Of a stretch of DNA of 64,000 bases, positions 19,631-29,517 are shown one piece after another; within the stretch, counting starts at the first letter, position 1, and each line of letters begins with the position of its first letter. Under the pieces are notes generated by a model that made no database searches, had not been told where the DNA came from, and worked only from the letters and a program-made list of their open reading frames with translations. This stretch comes from Methylomonas sp. UP202 (lineage in GTDB: Bacteria; Pseudomonadota; Gammaproteobacteria; Methylococcales; Methylomonadaceae), in NCBI RefSeq assembly GCF_029910655.1, contig NZ_CP123897.1, positions 3,151,547-3,215,546 of the forward strand, written 5' to 3'. The position numbers were made by a program, and so were the translations under genes.

Positions 19631-20593
19631 CTACTCCGGCTTCAGCAAGCGCAATTGATAATGCAACACGACCCAAGCTCCGCAAACGGCCAGAGCCGAA
19701 GAAATCGTCAGCAACAGCAAAAACTCGCCGAAACTCAGAAACAATAATTCGAAGGCGCTGTTATAGAGTACCGACAATTTCTCGACCGGTGACTCCAGGA
19801 TCAACAACATCACCGTCACGATCAACCAGCCCAGAAAGCCGGCGATGAATCCCAACCAAAATCCGGTATAGAGAAACGGCCGCTGAATGAAGGCATTCGT
19901 AGCGCCGACCAATTTGGAAATATAGACTTCGTCCTGACGATTCTGCAACTCCAGACGGATCGTGTTGCCGGTAATAAACGTAACCGCGAAACCCAGCAGC
20001 AAACTGACCAACATCACGCCGCGGCTGGCAATCGTCATGATGGTCTGTAAGCGGGCCACCCATTGCATATCCACTTGCACGAAATCGACTTGCGGCAATT
20101 GTTTGAACTCCGCCATCAGCGTTTCGATGTCGGCGTTGGATTCCAGGGTGTGCTTGGGCTGAACTTGGATCACGCTGGGCAGCGGATTTTGTTCCAAGGC
20201 ATTCAACGCGTCGCCGAAACCGCTATTGGCCTTGAACTCATCCAAAGCCTGCTGCTTGGTGATTAACTTAACCGCATCCACGCTGGGATTTTGCCGCAGT
20301 TGTTCGACCAGCTTCTGACCGGCGGCGTCGGTGACGTTGTCGTGTAAAAACAGCGACATTTGATTGCTGCTCTCCAAATTCCCGGTCAATTGCTGAATGT
20401 TGGCGACGCCGATGTAAAAACCGCCGGACAACGACACCGCGATCGCCAGTACCAGCACCGTCATCGCCGACGTGAACGGCGAACGGGTCAAGCGGCCGAG
20501 ACTGGAAAACAGACCGTGGGCATGATTCAGCAAATACGCCTGGAAACGGTCGTTCAAGCGCTGACCGAAATGTTTTCGCTGTACTTGTCTCAT
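19631..20593 (-). CDS. ftsX: Cell division protein FtsX
   Basis: FtsX is the membrane subunit of the FtsEX complex that drives amidase activation at the septum. The 320 residues have a cytoplasmic N-terminus, TM1 at about 43-64, a large periplasmic domain to about 170, and three further transmembrane helices. The ATG at 20593 was chosen; an in-frame TTG two codons upstream overlaps the ftsE stop. It is the last gene of an ftsY-ftsE-ftsX run, the standard proteobacterial order. Confidence 0.95.
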   Translation of the reverse strand: MRQVQRKHFGQRLNDRFQAYLLNHAHGLFSSLGRLTRSPFTSAMTVLVLAIAVSLSGGFYIGVANIQQLTGNLESSNQMSLFLHDNVTDAAGQKLVEQLRQNPSVDAVKLITKQQALDEFKANSGFGDALNALEQNPLPSVIQVQPKHTLESNADIETLMAEFKQLPQVDFVQVDMQWVARLQTIMTIASRGVMLVSLLLGFAVTFITGNTIRLELQNRQDEVYISKLVGATNAFIQRPFLYTGFWLGFIAGFLGWLIVTVMLLILESPVEKLSVLYNSAFELLFLSFGEFLLLLTISSALAVCGAWVVLHYQLRLLKPE

Positions 20594-20595
20594 CG

Positions 20596-21252
20596 TCAAC
20601 TCGCCACCAAATGGCCTTTGTCCAAAGTCAGGACCCGATAGCCGAGCACGTGAACCAGCTCGATATCGTGAGTGGCGATCAACACCGAAACCCCGACTTG
20701 CTTGAACTGCTCGAACATATGCATGACTTCGGCCGACAGATCCGGGTCCAGGTTGCCGGTCGGCTCGTCGGCGATAATCAGCTTGGGTTTGTTGACGATG
20801 GCCCTGGCGATGCCGACCCGTTGTTGTTCGCCGCCGGACAAGGCCAGCGGATATTTACGCTCCTTGCCCAGCAGCCCGACTTTGTCCAGCGACGCCCTCA
20901 CCCGCCTCGCCACTTCATTGGTCTGATAGCCGGACACCACCAACGGCAACGCCACGTTATCGAACACGGTCCTATCGTTTAGCAGTTTATAGTCCTGAAA
21001 GATCAGACCGAGTCCGCGCCGCAAATACGGCACTTTACGCTCGCTGACCCGGTTGATGAGTTGGCCGTCCAGGAAAATGTTACCGCGCGTGCATTGCTCC
21101 ATCATCGCGATCAATTTTAGCAATGTGCTTTTGCCGGCGCCGGAGCGGCCGGTCAGAAACGCCATTTCGCCTTTTTGCAGATGAAAGCTGACGTCGATCA
21201 AAGCCTCGCCGGCGTCGGGGTAACGTTTGCTGACGTGTTCGAACTTGAGCAT
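20596..21252 (-). CDS. ftsE: Cell division ATP-binding protein FtsE
   Basis: FtsE is the ABC ATPase partner of FtsX. Walker A is GRSGAGKST at 35-43, the signature is LSGGEQQR, Walker B is [10 protein letters not shown] and the H-loop is ATHD. The start [11 protein letters not shown] gives 218 residues, close to the standard size of about 220. It lies four bases after the stop of the CtaA-FtsY frame and two bases before ftsX, so all three are almost certainly co-transcribed. Confidence 0.96.
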
Positions 21253-21256
21253 GGCG

Positions 21257-23275
21257 TTAGTCTTTAGCGAACAAGGCCTCGACGAACTGCTCGGCATCGA
21301 AATCCTGCAAATCGTCGATGCTCTCGCCGACGCCGATGAAGCGGATCGGGATGTGCAATTGATTAGCCAATGCGAAAATGATGCCGCCCTTGGCGGTGCC
21401 GTCCAGTTTGGTCAAGGCCAGACCGGTCAAGCCAACCGCTTCGTTGAATATTTTAGCCTGCGACAGCGCATTCTGGCCGGTGCCGGCATCCAGAATCAAC
21501 AACACTTCATGCGGCGCACTGTCGTCCAATTTGGCGATGATCCGCTTGATCTTTTTCAACTCGTCCATCAAATTGGACTTGGTATGCAAACGACCGGCGG
21601 TATCCGCGATCAACACATCCACGCCTTTGGATTTGGCCGACTGCAGCGCGTCGAAGATCACCGATGCCGAATCGGCGCCGGTGTGCTGCGCCACAACCGC
21701 CACATTATTACGCTCGCCCCAGGTCTGCAACTGCTCGACCGCCGCCGCCCGGAAAGTATCGCCGGCCGCCAGCATCACGCTATGCCCTTGTTGCTGCAAA
21801 CGCTTGGCCAATTTACCTATCGACGTGGTTTTGCCGACGCCGTTGACGCCGACTACCAGAATCACGAACGGTCCATCCCGTTCCGGAATTTTCAGCGCTT
21901 GCGAGCAGGGTTTCAGTATCGTCAGCAGTTGCTGCTTTAGCGCATCGAGCAAGGCATCGCCGTCGGCCAGCTGTTCGCTCTCCAAGGTTTTTTGCAAATG
22001 TTCGATCAATTGGGTCGTCGTTTCGATGCCGAGGTCGGCCATCAGCAAACTCGCCTCCAAATCGACCAGCAAACCCTTGGTCACCGCTTTCTTGCCGAAT
22101 GCCAAGCTGCCCAGCACCGATCCGAAACCGCCGCGGGTTTTTTGCAGTTGATTACTCAAGCGTTGGAACAGACTCTCCGCCACCGGCACTTCGACGGGCA
22201 CCGGTGCCAAAGCCACCTCACCGACCGTTGCCGGAATCGCCGCTTCGCCGGCAGGGACCTCGGCTTCGGCTTCGGCTTCGGCTTCGGCTTCGGCTTCGGC
22301 TTCGGCTTCGGGAAAACCGTAACGGCTGTAAAAGGCAATGGCCAATAACGGCACCATCAACAAAGCCGCCACCGCGTTATGCGCAACCGCCAATCCCAGC
22401 GGCAGACTATATTTGACGCTGAAGATCCCTAGTACGATTTGCAGCAGCAAAACCAGGCTGACCAGGTTACCTGCCAAGCGTACCGGTTTGGGATAGCGGT
22501 CGCCGGTCGCTACCAGCATCAACGCGCTCACGACCAAGAAGGTAAGGCCGGCCGCCAGCCGGTGAACGGTGTGAACAGCCGCTAGCGCGGCGGCGCTCAA
22601 CAACTGCCCTTCCGGACGGAACGGATTCAATGCATCCCAGTAGTCGGCCGCCGGCAGCCAAACCCCTTGGCAACGCGGGAAATCGTCGCACGCTAGCCCA
22701 GCGTAGTTGCTGCTGACCCATCCCCCCAACGCAATCTGCGCCAGCACCACGCACATCGCCAATCCGGTTAGCCACATCGGCCCGGAACTGACCGAACGCC
22801 GGCTCAGAGCCGGATCCAAGCGCAGATAAGCCCAAACCAGCGCCCAAAAGGTCATGAATCCCAATAACAAATGTCCGGTAACGACCGCCGGGGTCAGCTT
22901 GGCGGCCACGGTCCACATGCCCAACGCCGCCTGGCTGGCAATCAGCGATACGATAACCAGGGTCCAGCCGACCGCGAGGCCGCGTTTTTGCTCGCGCCAA
23001 GCGAACGGCAGGGCCAGCAACACCAAGACCGTCAGCGCGCCTGCTAAATAACGATGGGCCATTTCCTTCCAGGCCTTGGCGACATCAACCGCTTGCCCGC
23101 CGAACGCGGCCGCCGCATCGGCCTTGAATTGGTCGGTATCGGCGACGACGGCTTTGCCGTAACAACCGGGCCAGTCCGGACAACCCAAGCCGGCGTGGCC
23201 GAGGCGGACATAGGCGCCGACCACGATGACCAGCAGCGCCAGGATGGCTCCGCACAATAATAATCTTCTGAACAT
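21257..23275 (-). CDS. ctaA-ftsY: Heme A synthase (CtaA) fused in frame to the SRP receptor FtsY
   Basis: One uninterrupted 672-codon frame encodes two normally separate proteins. Residues 1-321 are a complete CtaA/COX15-type heme A synthase: eight transmembrane helices, histidines in EMAHRYLAG, TGHLLLGF, VHTVHRLAAG and AVAHNAVAAL, and paired loop cysteines in GLGCPDWPGC and LACDDFPRC. Pro322 leads into an alternating Glu-Ala run (323-339). Residues from about 366 to 672 are an FtsY NG GTPase with GVNGVGKTT (476-484), DTFRAA (506-511), DTAGR (558-562) and TKLDG (622-626). An even number of CtaA helices puts FtsY in the cytoplasm, as required. No separate start with a ribosome site is visible for FtsY; ATG at residue 307 is the only nearby candidate. 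ftsE and ftsX follow. Confidence 0.85.
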   Translation of the reverse strand: MFRRLLLCGAILALLVIVVGAYVRLGHAGLGCPDWPGCYGKAVVADTDQFKADAAAAFGGQAVDVAKAWKEMAHRYLAGALTVLVLLALPFAWREQKRGLAVGWTLVIVSLIASQAALGMWTVAAKLTPAVVTGHLLLGFMTFWALVWAYLRLDPALSRRSVSSGPMWLTGLAMCVVLAQIALGGWVSSNYAGLACDDFPRCQGVWLPAADYWDALNPFRPEGQLLSAAALAAVHTVHRLAAGLTFLVVSALMLVATGDRYPKPVRLAGNLVSLVLLLQIVLGIFSVKYSLPLGLAVAHNAVAALLMVPLLAIAFYSRYGFPEAEAEAEAEAEAEAEAEVPAGEAAIPATVGEVALAPVPVEVPVAESLFQRLSNQLQKTRGGFGSVLGSLAFGKKAVTKGLLVDLEASLLMADLGIETTTQLIEHLQKTLESEQLADGDALLDALKQQLLTILKPCSQALKIPERDGPFVILVVGVNGVGKTTSIGKLAKRLQQQGHSVMLAAGDTFRAAAVEQLQTWGERNNVAVVAQHTGADSASVIFDALQSAKSKGVDVLIADTAGRLHTKSNLMDELKKIKRIIAKLDDSAPHEVLLILDAGTGQNALSQAKIFNEAVGLTGLALTKLDGTAKGGIIFALANQLHIPIRFIGVGESIDDLQDFDAEQFVEALFAKD
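22261..22308. repeat. Eight-copy hexanucleotide repeat at the CtaA-FtsY junction
   Basis: CGGCTT is repeated eight times perfectly on the plus strand. On the coding strand this is (GAAGCC)n, encoding Glu-Ala repeats. Because the unit is six bases, copy-number change would lengthen or shorten the linker without shifting frame. Confidence 0.95.
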
Positions 23276-23280
23276 GTTTA

Positions 23281-23871
23281 TTAACCGATTTGGGAAATTC
23301 TGAGGAGTTTGCTTAAGTCGTCTCTGACTTGATAGGGATCGAATCCGGGCGGGTATTTCATCATCAGATTGCCGAGAGGGTCCATGATGATCAAGGCACC
23401 CTCGACCGGGGCTTGGCCGGCGATCCCGGATAATCCCGACCGCAAGCCATCGGCCGGCAGCGCTTTCAGCAGGCGCGCATCCTCGCGCCATTGGCCGGGC
23501 AGCGCGACTTGTCCGTCGCTTAGCAAAGCCAAGCGCCGCACTCGGGCGATGTCCTTGCCTATCATCAGACCGATCTGCCGGGATTTATGCAGGGCATCGG
23601 CGCACACTTGCGAGCACGCGCCGAATACCGGATTAATGAGTACCCAGTGCCCCTTCAACTCCCCGATATTTTCTTGGGAAAACGTATCTGCACCGACAAA
23701 ACTGACCGGTTCGGTCTGAAGCGGCGGTTGAATCAACTCGCCATGATTGGTCCCCAATCTGACGGTGTCCGGATGCGCCGCCAAATACCAAGCGATGCTG
23801 AATGGAATCGCCGTCATGGCGAAGATTCCTAAAATGGTGAGACGATTTATTTTTAATTGTTGTTTACTCAC
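23281..23871 (-). CDS. SCO1/thioredoxin-like cytochrome oxidase assembly protein
   Basis: The 196-residue protein has one N-terminal transmembrane helix (about residues 12-30) and a periplasmic thioredoxin-like domain with CSQVC, a C-x3-C copper site as in SCO proteins. It ends with a typical helix, RDDLSKLLR. It sits between SURF1 and ctaA, the usual place for this accessory protein, and probably helps build the copper A site. It starts eight bases inside the SURF1 gene, and the CtaA start follows five bases after its stop. Confidence 0.85.
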   Translation of the reverse strand: MSKQQLKINRLTILGIFAMTAIPFSIAWYLAAHPDTVRLGTNHGELIQPPLQTEPVSFVGADTFSQENIGELKGHWVLINPVFGACSQVCADALHKSRQIGLMIGKDIARVRRLALLSDGQVALPGQWREDARLLKALPADGLRSGLSGIAGQAPVEGALIIMDPLGNLMMKYPPGFDPYQVRDDLSKLLRISQIG

Positions 23872-24610
23872 GACGTTTACGAAGACTGTTCCAAAACATT
23901 AGGGTGCTTAGCGTTAGCGCTAAACCGAACCATTGTACTGCATAGGCCCGGTGTTTTTCCGGCGGAATGACCACGTTGATGCGCCAATCCCGAAGATAGC
24001 CGGCGGGTTGATCCGTATCCAATTCCAGTTGGAACGGCGCCAGCGCGTAGCCGAATTTGACGCCGAGTGCAGCCAAATCGACGTACTGAGTGCGAACCGG
24101 CCAGCCTTCGCCCGGCGTCCCGCCGCCAGCCAGCCGAATGCCGACGTCGGGAAAACGGTTGATGCGGCCGCGCAACTGTTCGACCGGCGTATCGATGCTT
24201 AAATCGGGGACTACTCGCCTATCTCGGCCCAGCGGCAACCAGCCGCGATTGACCAAGACCGCGGCTTGGCCGTTGGCGGGCAAAAACGGCGTGAACACCA
24301 AATATCCGGGCCGGCCGTCGTGTACCTGATTGTCGAGCAATAATTGATGGGCGTCGTCGTAATGCCCTTGTAAAGTCGCCTTGCGATACCGAATCGCCTC
24401 GAGCTCCGGCTCGCCCGGTATCCGCTGGTTCAAATCCAGTGCAACCGACATTTGGGCTGCATATTGCGCGTCGAGCAAGGCTTGCTTTTCATCCGCGCGG
24501 CGCAATTGCCAGAATCCCAGGTTGCATAGCAACACCATCATTGCAAGATAACCTACCAATAGGGCCGGCGACCAGCGCCACTCCATGCGAAACAGCCGAA
24601 ATTTAATCAT
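23864..24610 (-). CDS. SURF1 family cytochrome oxidase assembly protein
   Basis: The 248-residue protein has N- and C-terminal transmembrane helices flanking a periplasmic domain, as in SURF1/SHY1. NLGFWQLRRADEKQALL after helix 1 and VLVNRGWLPLGRDRR in the loop are family signatures. SURF1 assists heme a insertion into subunit I. It starts the second half of the oxidase gene group, after the divergent DUF2909 gene and terminator, so this part needs its own promoter in 24611-24683. Confidence 0.92.
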   Translation of the reverse strand: MIKFRLFRMEWRWSPALLVGYLAMMVLLCNLGFWQLRRADEKQALLDAQYAAQMSVALDLNQRIPGEPELEAIRYRKATLQGHYDDAHQLLLDNQVHDGRPGYLVFTPFLPANGQAAVLVNRGWLPLGRDRRVVPDLSIDTPVEQLRGRINRFPDVGIRLAGGGTPGEGWPVRTQYVDLAALGVKFGYALAPFQLELDTDQPAGYLRDWRINVVIPPEKHRAYAVQWFGLALTLSTLMFWNSLRKRRE

Positions 24611-25018: not shown

Positions 25019-25897
25019 TTACATCAAGTAAACGAAGACAAACAAGCCCAACCAGACCACGTCGACAAAGTGCCAATACCATGCCGCCGCTTCGAAAGCG
25101 AAATGATTTTCCGGCGTAAAATGGCCTTTCCAGCTTCGGAACAGCACCACCGACAGAATGATCGCACCGACGCAGACGTGGAAACCGTGGAAACCGGTCA
25201 ACATGAAAAAGGTTGAACCGTAGATCCCGGAACCCAGCGTCAAACCCATCTCGTGATAGGCTTCGTAGTACTCGGTAGCTTGGCAAGCGACAAACAAAAA
25301 GCCCAAGCCGACGGTAGCCAACAGGCCTTTGATCAGCTGGCCGCGATGCTTGGCCAACAAGCCGTGATGCGCCCAGGTGCAGGTAACGCCGCTGGATAAC
25401 AGCAACAAGGTGTTGATCAACGGTAAACCAAAGGCGCCCATCGGCTCGAAATCGCCGCCGACCTTACCGGGACCGTTGGTCGGCCAAGTCGAGCTAAAGC
25501 CGTCCCACAGCGTAAAGGTCGAACGACCCGGACCGCTGACGAACGCGCCGTCGGTCGCGCCCAACCAGGGCACCGACAGATTGCGGGTGTACCAGAGCGC
25601 GCCGAAGAACACCGCGAAGAACATCACTTCGGAGAAAATAAACCACATCATGCCCATCCGGTAAGAAATACCGACGCCGTGGTTGTACATGCCGGACTCG
25701 CTTTCGGTTGCTTGCAACGCAAACCACGCGCCCAACATCACCAGAAACACCACGAAACCGGCCAACATCATGCCGGAGCCGATCGAGTTGCCGTTCAAAT
25801 GGTTTGCAAAGCCCGCCAGCGTCAGCATCAAACCGGCGGTGGCCATCACCGGCCAAGTGGCTTTATGCGGGATGTAATAAGCTGTGTTTGTAGACAT
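25019..25897 (-). CDS. ctaE: Cytochrome c oxidase subunit III
   Basis: This is membrane subunit III of an aa3-type oxidase, 292 residues with about seven transmembrane helices. FIFSEVMFFAVFFGALWY carries the conserved glutamate, and the C-terminal HFVDVVWLGLFVFVYLM is a family signature, as is FHGFHVCVGA. It is the last gene of the ctaC-ctaD-small protein-ctaG-ctaE run. Confidence 0.96.
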   Translation of the reverse strand: MSTNTAYYIPHKATWPVMATAGLMLTLAGFANHLNGNSIGSGMMLAGFVVFLVMLGAWFALQATESESGMYNHGVGISYRMGMMWFIFSEVMFFAVFFGALWYTRNLSVPWLGATDGAFVSGPGRSTFTLWDGFSSTWPTNGPGKVGGDFEPMGAFGLPLINTLLLLSSGVTCTWAHHGLLAKHRGQLIKGLLATVGLGFLFVACQATEYYEAYHEMGLTLGSGIYGSTFFMLTGFHGFHVCVGAIILSVVLFRSWKGHFTPENHFAFEAAAWYWHFVDVVWLGLFVFVYLM

Positions 25898-25911
25898 AAC
25901 CTTCCCCTTCG

Positions 25912-26457
25912 TTAATTTTCAGATTTTTCAGTAATTTCAAAAAAAGTGTAAGACAGCGTAATGTTTTTATAGCGCTCGGGCAGTTTCGGATCGACAACCA
26001 AACGAACCGTCATGTTCTTCTCTTCGTTCGGATCGAATATCTGTTCCAACTCGCAAAAACAAATCACCTTGGTGACGTATTCCTTGACCAAGCCCGGCGT
26101 GTAAGTCGCTACCGCGCGTACCTTAATCCTGCGATCGCTCAAGTTTTTCGCGTGAAATCCCACCGAATAATATTGGCCGGGATGAATCTTCAGACTGGGC
26201 GTTTCCACCTTAAAGTCCATCGGCACCGCACGATTCAGCGACGTCAAAAACTCCATCGTGATTTCCCGCGACTCGTCAACCTTGAACTCGGATTCGGTCT
26301 TGGCGACGCTTTCCAGCGTGGCGTTTTGTCCGGTGAGTTCGCAAAGCACGTCGTAAAGCGGTACCAGCGCATAACCGAAACCAAACATCAGCACCGCCAC
26401 GCCGATCAGTTTCGCGGCCAGTCTGCGGTTTTTACCACGCAACTCTTCGCCGCTCAT
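25912..26457 (-). CDS. ctaG: Cytochrome c oxidase assembly protein CtaG (Cox11)
   Basis: This copper chaperone for the CuB site of subunit I has 181 residues: one N-terminal transmembrane helix (about 15-32) and a periplasmic immunoglobulin-like domain. The copper ligands are in ICFCELEQ, and IFDPN follows as usual. Its ATG overlaps the TGA of the tiny upstream gene (ATGA). It is 14 bases upstream of ctaE. Confidence 0.95.
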   Translation of the reverse strand: MSGEELRGKNRRLAAKLIGVAVLMFGFGYALVPLYDVLCELTGQNATLESVAKTESEFKVDESREITMEFLTSLNRAVPMDFKVETPSLKIHPGQYYSVGFHAKNLSDRRIKVRAVATYTPGLVKEYVTKVICFCELEQIFDPNEEKNMTVRLVVDPKLPERYKNITLSYTFFEITEKSEN

Positions 26458-26552
26458 TGCGACATGGCCTTCATCACCGCGAACACATAAATCGTCAACG
26501 CAACCGCGACCAAGGCCAGCGCGGTCAAAATATTTTTAGTCTTGATATTCAT
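26454..26552 (-). CDS. Tiny cytochrome oxidase assembly protein (32 residues)
   Basis: A 33-codon frame begins at ATG 26552 after a good ribosome site (GAGGATAGAG). It encodes a short basic N-terminus (MNIKTKN), one transmembrane helix (ILTALALVAVALTIYVFAV) and a tail KAMSQ. The TGA overlaps the ctaG start, so the two are translationally coupled. Position and layout match the small oxidase-assembly proteins found between ctaD and ctaG in other proteobacteria. It is short enough to be missed by standard gene calling. Confidence 0.82.
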   Translation of the reverse strand: MNIKTKNILTALALVAVALTIYVFAVMKAMSQ

Positions 26553-26622
26553 CTCTATCCTCGCGCCCTCCTGTCGGCTCGTACCGACAGGAAGGCCGCC
26601 GTCCAAGCCGCCCGCCTAGCGA

Positions 26623-28239
26623 TTAAAAATGCTCTGTCGGAATTTTTTCCGGCGGGGTGGCAAACGTGTGATAAGGCGCGGGAGACGCCACGGTCCACTC
26701 CAAGCTGTGCTTGCTGGCGTCTTCCCACACTTCGTCGGTGACTTTCTCGCCGGTACCGCCGCGAATCGTATCGATGACGATGTAAACGAACAGCAATTGA
26801 CTGAAGCCATAGATGAACGCGCCGATACTGGACACCATGTTCCAATCCGCGAATTGAATCGCATAGTCCGGAATACGGCGCGGCATGCCGGCCAGACCCA
26901 GGAAATGCTGCGGGAAAAACAGGATGTTGACCGAAATCGCCGACAACCAGAAATGCAGTTTGCCGATTTTCTCGTTGTACATATGCCCGGTCCATTTAGG
27001 CAGCCAAAAATAACCGGCGGCCATCAGAATGAAAACCGAAGCGGGTACCAAGGTGTAATGAAAATGCGCCACGATGAAATAAGTATCGTGATATTGAAAA
27101 TCGACCGGCGCGACCGACATCATCAAACCGGTGAAACCGCCCATCGTAAACAACACCACGAACGCGATCGCGAACAACATCGGCGTTTCGAAGGTCATCG
27201 AGCCTTTCCACATCGTCGCGGTCCAGTTGAATACTTTCACGCCGGTCGGAATCGCAATCAGCATCGTCGCGTACATAAAGTACAGCTCGCCGGCAATCGG
27301 CAGACCGACCGTGAACATGTGATGGCACCAAACGATGAACGACAGGAACGCAATCGCGCCGGTCGCGTAGACCATCGAAGCGTAACCGAACAACGGTTTG
27401 CGAGCGAACACCGGAATGATGGTCGAAGCCACGCCGAAGGTCGGCAGAATCATCACATACACTTCGGGATGACCGAAAAACCAAAAGATATGTTGATACA
27501 ACACCGGGTCGCCGCCGCCGGCCGCGTCGAAGAAGCTGGTGCCGAAGAAACGGTCGGTCAACAGCATCGTCACCGCACCGGCGAAAACCGGCATGATCGC
27601 GATCAACAGGAATGCGGTGATCAGCCAGGTCCAGACGAACAGCGGCATTTTCATCAAGGTCATTGCCGGGGCGCGCATGTTGAAAATGGTCGCGATCACG
27701 TTGATCGCACCCATGATCGACGACACACCCAGCAAGTGAACCGCGAAGATCGCGAACGGCAAGGCTTTTCCGGTTTGCAATACCAGTGGCGGATACAGCG
27801 TCCAACCAGCCGAAGGCGCGCCGCCCTCCATGAACAGGGTACTGGCGATCAGCAACACGCCGGCCACCAACATCCAGAAGCTCATGTTGTTCATCCGCGG
27901 CAGCGCCATGTCCGGCGCGCCGATCATCATCGGAATCATCCAGTTGGCCAGACCGACGAAAGCCGGCATCACCGCCCCGAAGACCATCACCAGCGCGTGC
28001 ATCGTGGTCATCGAGTTGAAGAAGTTGGGATCGACGAATTGCAATCCCGGCTCGAACAATTCCGAGCGGATAATCAAAGCCATGCTACCGCCGACGAAAA
28101 ACATCGCCAGCGAGAACACCAGATACATCGTGCCGATGTCTTTATGGTTGGTGGTAATTATCCAGCGCAGAATACCCTTATCCGGGCCGTGATCGTGGTG
28201 ATCGTGATGATCATCATGTTCAGCTACGACAGCAGTCAT
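26623..28239 (-). CDS. ctaD: Cytochrome c oxidase subunit I
   Basis: This is the catalytic heme-copper subunit, 538 residues and twelve transmembrane helices. Heme and CuB ligands lie in TMHALVMVFG, FWFFGHPEVYV (His-Tyr cross-link region), WCHHMFTVG and AHFHYTLV. The helix VI glutamate GHPEVY marks an A-type oxidase. The N-terminus has a His-rich stretch (EHDDHHDHHDHG) before helix I. It lies between ctaC and the small assembly gene. A long open frame on the opposite strand is a codon-bias shadow. Confidence 0.97.
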   Translation of the reverse strand: MTAVVAEHDDHHDHHDHGPDKGILRWIITTNHKDIGTMYLVFSLAMFFVGGSMALIIRSELFEPGLQFVDPNFFNSMTTMHALVMVFGAVMPAFVGLANWMIPMMIGAPDMALPRMNNMSFWMLVAGVLLIASTLFMEGGAPSAGWTLYPPLVLQTGKALPFAIFAVHLLGVSSIMGAINVIATIFNMRAPAMTLMKMPLFVWTWLITAFLLIAIMPVFAGAVTMLLTDRFFGTSFFDAAGGGDPVLYQHIFWFFGHPEVYVMILPTFGVASTIIPVFARKPLFGYASMVYATGAIAFLSFIVWCHHMFTVGLPIAGELYFMYATMLIAIPTGVKVFNWTATMWKGSMTFETPMLFAIAFVVLFTMGGFTGLMMSVAPVDFQYHDTYFIVAHFHYTLVPASVFILMAAGYFWLPKWTGHMYNEKIGKLHFWLSAISVNILFFPQHFLGLAGMPRRIPDYAIQFADWNMVSSIGAFIYGFSQLLFVYIVIDTIRGGTGEKVTDEVWEDASKHSLEWTVASPAPYHTFATPPEKIPTEHF

Positions 28240-28296
28240 ACGTAATACCTCAAGAAATAATAGATAGTGAGTTCAACCCTATAAAACCGGTTCCAA

Positions 28297-29517
28297 TCAA
28301 GAGCCGACTTTGTTCTCGGCGACAACCTTGGGTTTGACTTCGCCGTTCTCTTTACATTGTTGAGCCGCATCGTCGATATCCGGATACAAATCGTCGAAAT
28401 CGTCGAGCGTCAAGGCCTGACAAGGTTGGAACTCATCGCCGACATTGTTGCCCAGATTCGGAGAATTCCGCAGATAGGTCACCAATTCGGCCAATTCGTC
28501 GGCAGGCAATTTCTTGAACGCCGGCATTTTGCTGGTACCGGCTTGCACGAAACCGATCAGTTGATCGACATTGCCGGTCACTTTCGCGCTGGCGCTCAGC
28601 GCTGGATACCAACCGCTGATGCCCTTGCCGTCGATTTGATGGCAAGCCACGCAGTTTTTCAAGTAAACCGATTCGCCCTTAATCAGCAGCGAAGACCGGG
28701 TCAGCTTGCTCAAATCCGGCGCTTGTTTTTGTTTTTCCAGCGTGGATTTCACCCAGGCGTCGTACTGCTCCTGTTCCATCGCGATGACGACGATAGGCAT
28801 GAAGCCGTGGTCGCGCCCGCACAGCTCGGTGCATTGGCCGCGATAGACGCCGGGCTTGTCGACTTGGGTCCATGCTTCGTTGACGAAACCGGGATTGGCG
28901 TCTTTTTTCCAGCCTAGATCGGGCACCCACCAGGAGTGAATCACGTCGGCGGCGGTGAACAGGAAGCGGATTTTCTTACCGACCGGAATCACCAACGGTT
29001 TGTCGACGTTCAGCAGGTAGTTGGGTACCGCGCGCGGGTCCATCGTGCTGACCCGGTGGGTTTTTTCGCTGGCTTCGTCCAAATGGCTTTCGAAGTGAAC
29101 GCCGGAATCCAGGTACTCGTAATCCCAATACCACTGTTTCCCGGTCACCTTGATGCTCATCTCGGATTCCTGGGTTCCGTCCAGATCGACCACGGCCTTG
29201 GTAGCCGGAATCGCCATACCGATCAGAATCAGCGTGGGAATAATGGTCCAGATGATCTCGACCGTCGTATTTTCATGAAACTGCGAAGCTTCGTGACCTT
29301 TTGATTTTCGATGATGGAAAATCGAGTAAAACATCGTACCGAACACCGCGACACCGATGAATACGCATATCCAAAGGATCAGCATGTGCAAATCGTACAG
29401 CTCATGACTGAGTTGTGTCACACCTTGCACAAGATTGAGTGTGTAGTCCGCGTGTGCCGCCTCCAGGCCCCAGGCCATCAAAACCAGACACGCGAGCAGT
29501 TGCTTTGTTTTCTTCAC
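28297..29517 (-). CDS. ctaC: Cytochrome c oxidase subunit II with C-terminal cytochrome c domain
   Basis: The 406-residue protein has a signal peptide, two transmembrane helices, a periplasmic cupredoxin domain with the CuA site (GQCTELCGRDHGFM) and a C-terminal class I cytochrome c domain with heme motif CVACH and a later Met in SKMPAF. It is therefore a caa3-type subunit II that carries its own electron donor. It is first in the operon, 181 bases from a terminator belonging to the hemerythrin gene. Confidence 0.96.
   Translation of the reverse strand: MKKTKQLLACLVLMAWGLEAAHADYTLNLVQGVTQLSHELYDLHMLILWICVFIGVAVFGTMFYSIFHHRKSKGHEASQFHENTTVEIIWTIIPTLILIGMAIPATKAVVDLDGTQESEMSIKVTGKQWYWDYEYLDSGVHFESHLDEASEKTHRVSTMDPRAVPNYLLNVDKPLVIPVGKKIRFLFTAADVIHSWWVPDLGWKKDANPGFVNEAWTQVDKPGVYRGQCTELCGRDHGFMPIVVIAMEQEQYDAWVKSTLEKQKQAPDLSKLTRSSLLIKGESVYLKNCVACHQIDGKGISGWYPALSASAKVTGNVDQLIGFVQAGTSKMPAFKKLPADELAELVTYLRNSPNLGNNVGDEFQPCQALTLDDFDDLYPDIDDAAQQCKENGEVKPKVVAENKVGS

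Follow-up and report, generated by a model that had tools for sequence, protein, structure and literature searches.

The window, a stretch of 64,000 nucleotides from Methylomonas sp. UP202 (contig NZ_CP123897.1), contains a single open frame that carries a haem A synthase (CtaA) followed by FtsY, the SRP receptor. The product is quite probably a polytopic SRP receptor that is permanently anchored in the membrane, the CtaA part having been recruited as the anchor and being intact in the organism of the window. FtsY is usually regarded as a soluble or peripheral protein, and its exchange between cytosol and membrane as part of the targeting mechanism.

The fused gene and its two domains

The frame is free of stops from 21257 to 23275 on the minus strand and gives 672 residues from the ATG that begins MFRR. 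It is also open further upstream, as a 744-residue ORF from 23491. The MFRR ATG is the likely start of translation, as judged from the sequences, since M1-F2-R3 is invariant across 20 aligned fused proteins and the ATG lies 5 bases past the stop of the preceding gene. The features of the gene are as follows.

21257..23275, minus strand: ctaA-ftsY fusion gene, a single frame of 672 codons plus stop; the same frame is found in relatives
22322..23275, minus strand: CtaA (haem A synthase) domain, residues 1-318, eight helices (PF02628 and AlphaFold2 model)
23054..23065, minus strand: E71-x-x-H74, substrate-side catalytic motif (E57/H60 in B. subtilis numbering), by alignment, the motif as given in passages of PMC12808453
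22871..22873, minus strand: H135, second substrate-side histidine, by alignment
22670..22690, minus strand: C196...C202, Cys pair of the C-terminal half, by alignment
22562..22564, minus strand: H238, haem b ligand position of the C-terminal half, by alignment
22379..22381, minus strand: H299, haem b ligand position of the C-terminal half, by alignment
22178..22321, minus strand: acidic linker of variable length, residues 319-366, in the position of the A domain
22260..22311, minus strand: perfect hexanucleotide repeat, 8.7 copies, coding (Ala-Glu)n
22121..22177, minus strand: alpha-N1 lipid-binding helix of FtsY, residues 367-385
21260..22171, minus strand: FtsY NG domain (TIGR00064), the best-matching solved structures being E. 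coli FtsY

An initial annotation had described a complete CtaA, with eight helices and four conserved histidines, and a complete FtsY NG GTPase in one open frame, and the domain searches and structure prediction bear this out. Pfam COX15-CtaA (PF02628) matches residues 4-308 of the window protein with 226 bits, exceeding its cut-off of 29.9, SRP54_N matches residues 393-450, and the SRP54 GTPase matches residues 469-669 with 262.5 bits. The NCBIfam FtsY equivalog TIGR00064 gives 364.5 bits against a cut-off of 260.7, and with the NCBIfam Ffh and FlhF models the protein scores below their cut-offs. In all, 117 distinct fused frames were read, the window's own included, and 5 further frames were read separately; the G1 motif, DTFRAAA, DTAGR (G3) and TKLDG (G4) are present in 117/117. 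The FtsY part is thus assigned by its sequence to the FtsY class of SRP receptors, and SRP-dependent GTPase and targeting activity is predicted for it.

AlphaFold2 (mean pLDDT 68.4) places eight long helices inside residues 1-318 and predicts the NG fold at moderate confidence. H74, H135, H238 and H299 are the four histidines. The best 50 Foldseek matches shown for this model are FtsY or Ffh/SRP54 chains only, so that the CtaA assignment rests on sequence and helix count. Hydropathy undercounts the helices relative to the models, giving 8 segments in 66, 7 in 33, 6 in 15 and 5 in 3 of the 117 proteins. The models support eight, an even number, which would place FtsY on the same side of the membrane as the N-terminus. 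This agrees with the earlier proposal of a permanently anchored FtsY with the correct cytoplasmic topology; the anchoring itself we infer.

The window genome (G000) has three SRP54-family genes, namely the fusion and two genes of 469 and 477 codons that are far less similar to the FtsY part than the fusion is. The 469-codon gene is read as Ffh from its similarity (33% identity to the FtsY part) and its place, and the 477-codon gene is, at a guess, presumably FlhF. No second match to the FtsY part better than E 1e-60 was found in any of 61 genomes, and the search for a second ftsY leaves the fusion as the sole FtsY-class gene of the window genome.

Distribution, gene order and origin

The same fusion was sought in related genomes. 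In the window genome and 60 surveyed relatives, it is present in 54/54 genomes of families f1-f6 and in 0/7 genomes of f7 and f8, in which ctaA and ftsY are separate. G004, G007 and G009 gave two adjacent matches, which are one frame with both domains, and in G016 the match starts at residue 40, at a contig end. In a survey of 311 genomes of the order, 299 matched at E 1e-60; 34 genomes have weak or missing matches, 3 of them with none at E 1e-30, and in such exceptions the gene is at a contig end or was not found. Named carriers are Methylomonas, Methylotuvimicrobium buryatense 5G, Methylomicrobium sp. wino1, Methyloprofundus MAGs and the methanotrophic symbionts of Bathymodiolus. Isolates are included, and some of the fused sequences lie on complete chromosomes. 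The window genome itself is close to M. koyamae, with 95% identity in the best segment to the nearest named record.

The hexanucleotide repeat sits at the junction of the two parts, which could hint at an assembly error or an annotation artefact joining two genes; given the identical single frame in 117 distinct sequences, isolates and complete chromosomes among them, such an origin is improbable in the extreme, and the conservation in all 54 genomes of f1-f6 refutes it. Three MAGs do have the two parts out of one frame, through an in-frame stop (L048, genome G122) or frame changes (L277, G234; L278, G102). These splits are either errors or real fissions and, at one genome each, were not counted as a trend.

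A scan of 369 genomes of the class, 365 of them outside the order, gave no domain-spanning match outside the order among the matches listed, down to about E 1e-114; in such a scan a fused gene whose CtaA part had decayed strongly would resemble FtsY alone. Eight FtsY frames of 496-944 codons from this sample, one of them partly masked, have no polytopic anchor and carry ordinary acidic N-terminal regions or upstream sequence.

The possession of particulate methane monooxygenase (pMMO) was considered as a trait that might explain the fusion and was rejected. The PF02461 family occurs in 240/311 genomes of the order, and PF02461 (AMO/pMMO-type) genes, distant and with weaker scores, are also present in the unfused families (among the genomes listed, 12 of f7 and the two of f8, e.g. 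G042, G043 and G056), so that it is not a clean correlate.

The surroundings of the fusion in the window are as follows.

19631..20599, minus strand: ftsX (Pfam FtsX_ECD and FtsX), start codon approximate
20596..21252, minus strand: ftsE (Pfam ABC_tran), in the order ftsY-ftsE-ftsX
23281..23871, minus strand: gene of a PA0111-like redox protein, a weak NCBIfam match (38.8 bits against a cut-off of 230), no Pfam match
23864..24610, minus strand: SURF1 (PF02104)
25019..29517, minus strand: cox operon (cox3, cox11, cox1, cox2), with the fusion downstream
26623..28239, minus strand: cox1 within this operon (CtaD_CoxA, 680.2 bits)
28297..29517, minus strand: the gene within this operon that we take from its sequence to be cox2

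As had been noted, ftsE and ftsX follow the fusion normally, both on its strand. The gene order in fused genomes, in full or in part, is cox2, cox1, cox11, cox3, SURF1, PA0111-like gene, ctaA-ftsY, ftsE, ftsX, all on one strand. Where a context includes both SURF1 and ctaA, the PA0111-like gene almost always separates them, whether the context is fused or unfused. On the same strand upstream, cox3 is found in 42/56 fused contexts, a set in which a few genomes are counted twice; the other contexts are cut or have no cox3 in the stretch.

In seven unfused contexts (L136 and L137 from f7, L138 from f8, L074 from Methylohalomonas lacus, and the MAGs L073, L075 and L076) ctaA lies downstream of ftsYEX and is opposed to it in direction, with SURF1 and cox genes behind ctaA in 6/7. 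No cox genes were found in the stretches covered for the remaining unfused contexts. From this gene order a single inversion is suggested to have put ctaA, the end of the cox operon, in front of ftsYEX, and would in this way have brought it in frame before ftsY. In a tree of 75 FtsY NG rows, the 50 fused rows (the stop-split L048 included) fall on one side of a branch with support 83/89, which was recovered in 85% of 200 bootstrap trees, with f8 adjoining at 84/90; L073, L074 and the fused L133 were marked as having long branches. With this moderate support, the fusion probably arose once.

Fate of the haem A synthase part

According to passages of PMC8239418, PMC7327177 and PMC12808453, the N-terminal bundle of CtaA takes the substrate haem, with E57, H60 and H123, and the C-terminal bundle binds haem b, with H216 and H278. 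By alignment, the window protein has E71-x-x-H74-R, H135, H238, H299 and both Cys pairs (C32/C38 and C196/C202). With all its catalytic residues intact, the CtaA part of the window is probably also an active haem A synthase.

This is not general. Of the substrate-side residues, E survives in 48 of the 117 and H1 (H74) and H2 (H135) in 79 each; the three are complete together in 41, and at least one is gone in 76. The first Cys pair is kept in 95 and 94. On the haem b side, H3 (H238) is kept in 113 and H4 (H299) in 115, both together in 113, and C196 and C202 in 113 each; one or both of the C-half histidines are lost in four proteins (L143, L191, L197 and L198). Alignment of the decayed N-terminal halves is unsure, and the losses were rechecked without reliance on single columns: 75 of the 76 have no E-x-x-H anywhere in the region, and 28/117 have neither E-x-x-H nor any His in the TM4 window, a state found in 0/41 intact proteins. 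The fused protein of M. buryatense has the E, its substrate-side His being replaced by Arg and Gln, and the AlphaFold2 model of this protein likewise shows the eight helices, at a mean pLDDT of 69.8. Helices 2-3 are deleted, with about 80-100 residues missing, in six proteins from a single genus (L150, L151, L152, L154, L193 and L195; frames of 565-582 codons), and the fusion is retained, as are both C-half His and both Cys. Since an even number of helices is removed, FtsY would stay on the same side. In L142 and L143 (genus g35) the membrane part is hardly recognisable as CtaA, PF02628 giving a single CtaA in each of G270 and G271, yet the hydrophobic segments and the frame persist.

All nine residues are present in 47/47 free CtaA proteins of the same type in unfused lineages, a comparison set that was found by likeness to an intact query and hence favours intact ones. 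The CtaA piece of the stop-split fusion L048 also has all nine. In L163, an additional free CtaA from a genome of a fused family, Asp replaces E; L156 is a frame-changed fusion. Genus g47 has a further CtaA type (L163, L279); in G089 it is free and has Asp in the position of E57, and G090 of this genus gives three CtaA matches. Mapped on the tree (54 scored rows), the losses amount to 23 if irreversible, or 10 changes by parsimony. Loss of these residues does not prove inactivity, since some free CtaA groups are known, from passages of PMC8239418 and PMC12808453, that lack E57 or one His.

The check for a second ctaA in the genome, proposed together with that for ftsY, had the opposite outcome: a second, free CtaA is present in the window genome (L243:5585-6559, at about 1514600 of G000:C1), and it belongs to the class with Asn at the H60 position. 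No cox genes were seen by eye among the ORFs of 11 kb around it. A second, free CtaA was found in 61/63 of the fused-family genomes tested, in frames of 323-718 codons, mostly near 340. The 40 of these that were read are of another class, with Asn at the H60 position in 40/40 and E57, H123, H216 and H278 kept in 40/40. In lineages with damaged fused proteins the free second CtaA would have made the activity of the fused copy dispensable, whereupon its substrate side decayed and the fusion stayed.

There are 234 genomes that are at least 90% complete, 223 of them in fused families, and 13 of the 223 have a single CtaA match. In five of these 13 (G040 and G253-G256; 94-99% complete, 90-300 contigs) only the fused CtaA was found, intact, and it is probably their sole haem A synthase, to judge from its residues. 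In the fragmented MAGs G195 and G252 (550 and 320 contigs; 90 and 92% complete) the fused CtaA is damaged and no other CtaA was found; unless the free gene lies in an assembly gap, these two count against dispensability. In G125, G210, G218 and G263 no FtsY was found, and the single CtaA match is judged to be the free copy. In G271 the free CtaA alone was recognised, with no fused domain, and G270, of the same genus, has one match. All 11 of the f7/f8 genomes that are at least 90% complete have one CtaA each.

The initial annotation had held that the fusion ties co-translational targeting to oxidase biogenesis, in other words that it was selected for coupling haem A synthesis and oxidase assembly to targeting, with CtaA active. 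The position of cox3 upstream in most fused contexts speaks for this, as do the 41/117 proteins with E, H1, H2, H3 and H4 all intact and the intact state of CtaA in the five genomes that have the fused copy only. Against it, the fusion persists in all of the 76/117 proteins that have lost residues of the substrate side, through the repeated losses on the tree, through the deletion of helices 2-3, and in genomes of which 61/63 have a second CtaA. Because the substrate side is lost in 76/117 and the fusion stays, coupling to haem A synthesis fails to explain the conservation of the fusion, and we regard it as unlikely.

Substitution rates indicate what has been retained. In close pairs with both proteins intact (34 pairs), the median dN/dS is 0.059 for the N half, 0.043 for the C half and 0.018 for FtsY; with both damaged (27 pairs) it is 0.212, 0.089 and 0.034, the N half reaching at most 0.66 and the C half 0.29, all of these being plain Nei-Gojobori counts from close pairs that share sequences and not a codon-model test. 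After loss of the substrate side, the CtaA halves evolve faster, still far below neutrality. Within the 76 damaged proteins, H299, H238, C196 and C202 take first or second place in conservation among the 154 columns of the C half (95-97%). Among the 147 columns of the N half, E71 comes 138th and the first Cys pair third and fourth, kept in 71-72%. From dN/dS and column conservation together, the substrate site appears free to drift and the haem b site much less so.

This pattern raises the possibility that the fused CtaA is a regulatory haem b module, with FtsY gated by the C-terminal bundle and its Cys pair according to their haem or redox state. The top ranks of the two His and two Cys in damaged proteins, and their retention in all six proteins without helices 2-3, are in favour. 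According to passages of PMC12808453, the C-terminal Cys pair is not required for haem A synthase activity, so that its conservation calls for another reason. Set against these points, these residues may persist because haem b has a structural role in the bundle, four of the 117 proteins have lost one or both His, and the first Cys pair is likewise kept in most of the damaged group. We put the proposal forward tentatively, as somewhat doubtful; equally tentative is the view that the bis-His bundle and the outer Cys pair were kept by selection after synthesis had moved to the second CtaA. A regulatory module is compatible with a membrane anchor, and the probabilities given to the two are not exclusive.

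Proposed attachment of FtsY to the membrane

The initial annotation had remarked that FtsY normally begins with its own acidic A domain. The long A domain is indeed absent: the fusion has no N-terminal acidic A domain with alpha-A1, its place being taken by a short acidic linker, and what does remain is this acidic stretch and alpha-N1. The A domain is usual in proteobacterial FtsY and does not define it, since chloroplast FtsY is without one. Residues 330-396 of the window protein are under pLDDT 50 in the AlphaFold2 model, and the linkers are hypervariable, with a median length of 33 residues, and net acidic in 107/117 fused proteins. In a near relative, M. koyamae R-45383 (L040), the same hexamer array has 15 copies and the frame is still single; gain or loss of whole copies preserves the frame, and such changes might tune the length of the linker between strains. 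In alpha-N1, residues R372, L373 and L377 are present in 117/117 fused proteins.

As described in passages of PMC5533587, E. coli FtsY binds the membrane in two steps, a dynamic one aided by alpha-A1 and a stable, SRP-triggered one through alpha-N1, and artificially tethered NG with alpha-N1 retained selectivity better than the form without it. A permanently membrane-tethered FtsY is functional in E. coli, as stated in a passage of PMC2780400 citing Zelazny 1997. The proposed mechanism is that CtaA helices 1-8 keep the chain in the cytoplasmic membrane, that helix 8 ends in the cytoplasm, and that the flexible acidic linker there presents the NG GTPase, which would dock SRP-ribosome complexes like any FtsY. 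With alpha-A1 missing and alpha-N1 kept in every fused protein, we infer that the CtaA anchor substitutes for the first, reversible contact, made by alpha-A1 and the A domain in an ordinary FtsY, and that the second, SRP-triggered contact through alpha-N1 is unchanged. Translation as one uncleaved chain, an anchoring role for the CtaA part and a dispensable haem A synthesis by the fused copy are presumed in this proposal. The persistence of the fusion may be partly passive, because stops cannot arise in a frame that precedes an essential domain.

The anchor would have its limit in cleavage of the linker, which could free FtsY. E. coli FtsY is clipped near the border of its A and N domains, and the linker here is of low confidence in the model and hypervariable, all of which would suit a merely genetic fusion, from which linker proteolysis or an internal start yields a soluble or peripheral FtsY. 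Internal starts are scarce: an in-frame ATG in the linker plus 20 codons is present in 12/117 fused genes and in 339/351 control windows in NG, and SD-like internal starts are present in 13/117 and 97/351 respectively, the control windows being crude in that they contain a conserved Met. An internal start for FtsY was accordingly rejected, and any free FtsY could arise mainly by cleavage, since internal starts are seldom present. The transmembrane halves remain under purifying selection after substrate-side loss, and a leader that is thrown away would not need the near-invariant haem b ligand positions. A merely genetic fusion is therefore improbable, and permanent anchoring through CtaA, which is consistent with all the observations, remains the preferred reading.

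The anchored receptor resembles several known systems. It shares with E. coli-type FtsY the full NG GTPase with its G motifs, alpha-N1, the status of single FtsY-class gene and ftsE-ftsX downstream, and differs in having no FtsY start of its own, no alpha-A1 and no long A domain, and in having an eight-helix membrane anchor. The tethering principle is that of the engineered fusion of FtsY NG to an unrelated membrane protein (Zelazny et al. 1997) mentioned in PMC2780400, whereas here the fusion is natural, is spread over six families of an order and has an enzyme as partner. Passages of the same paper mention some Gram-positives or archaea whose FtsY has a true transmembrane helix; integral attachment is shared, but there it is by one helix, here by eight, and no enzyme domain is present there. 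The CtaA part is like CtaA/Cox15 of class B or type 1B, as set out in passages of PMC12808453, in its two four-helix halves, E-x-x-H-R, four His and two Cys pairs, and is unlike it in carrying a C-terminal GTPase and in its often damaged substrate side. With eukaryotic SR-alpha/SR-beta, the fusion has in common a receptor GTPase that is permanently at the membrane, although the anchors are unrelated. In SR-alpha/SR-beta the anchoring subunit is separate, according to a passage of PMC2780400. The CtaA fusions named in passages of PMC8239418 and PMC12808453 are with CtaB/haem O synthase and not with FtsY. In agreement with the earlier remark that no described CtaA-FtsY fusion was known to its author, no published description was found in the titles, abstracts and listings examined for open-licence PMC papers; genome annotation pipelines may already display both domains. 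For annotation, caution is advisable, as in many genomes the fused CtaA is probably no longer a haem A synthase.

Six families of one order thus appear to carry out SRP targeting with a receptor that is unable to leave the membrane. The fusion would be a natural counterpart of the engineered E. coli experiment, and with a receptor confined to the membrane the old question of what role, if any, a free FtsY pool has would become directly testable in tractable strains. Among the methane oxidisers of this order, an enzyme seems to have been turned into an anchor while one of its haem sites was kept. It is conceivable, if rather less than probable, that the SRP receptor of the order is a haem b protein, through which haem supply, redox state or oxygen tunes the insertion of membrane proteins; if so, the proteins affected would include the methane monooxygenase of the internal membranes.
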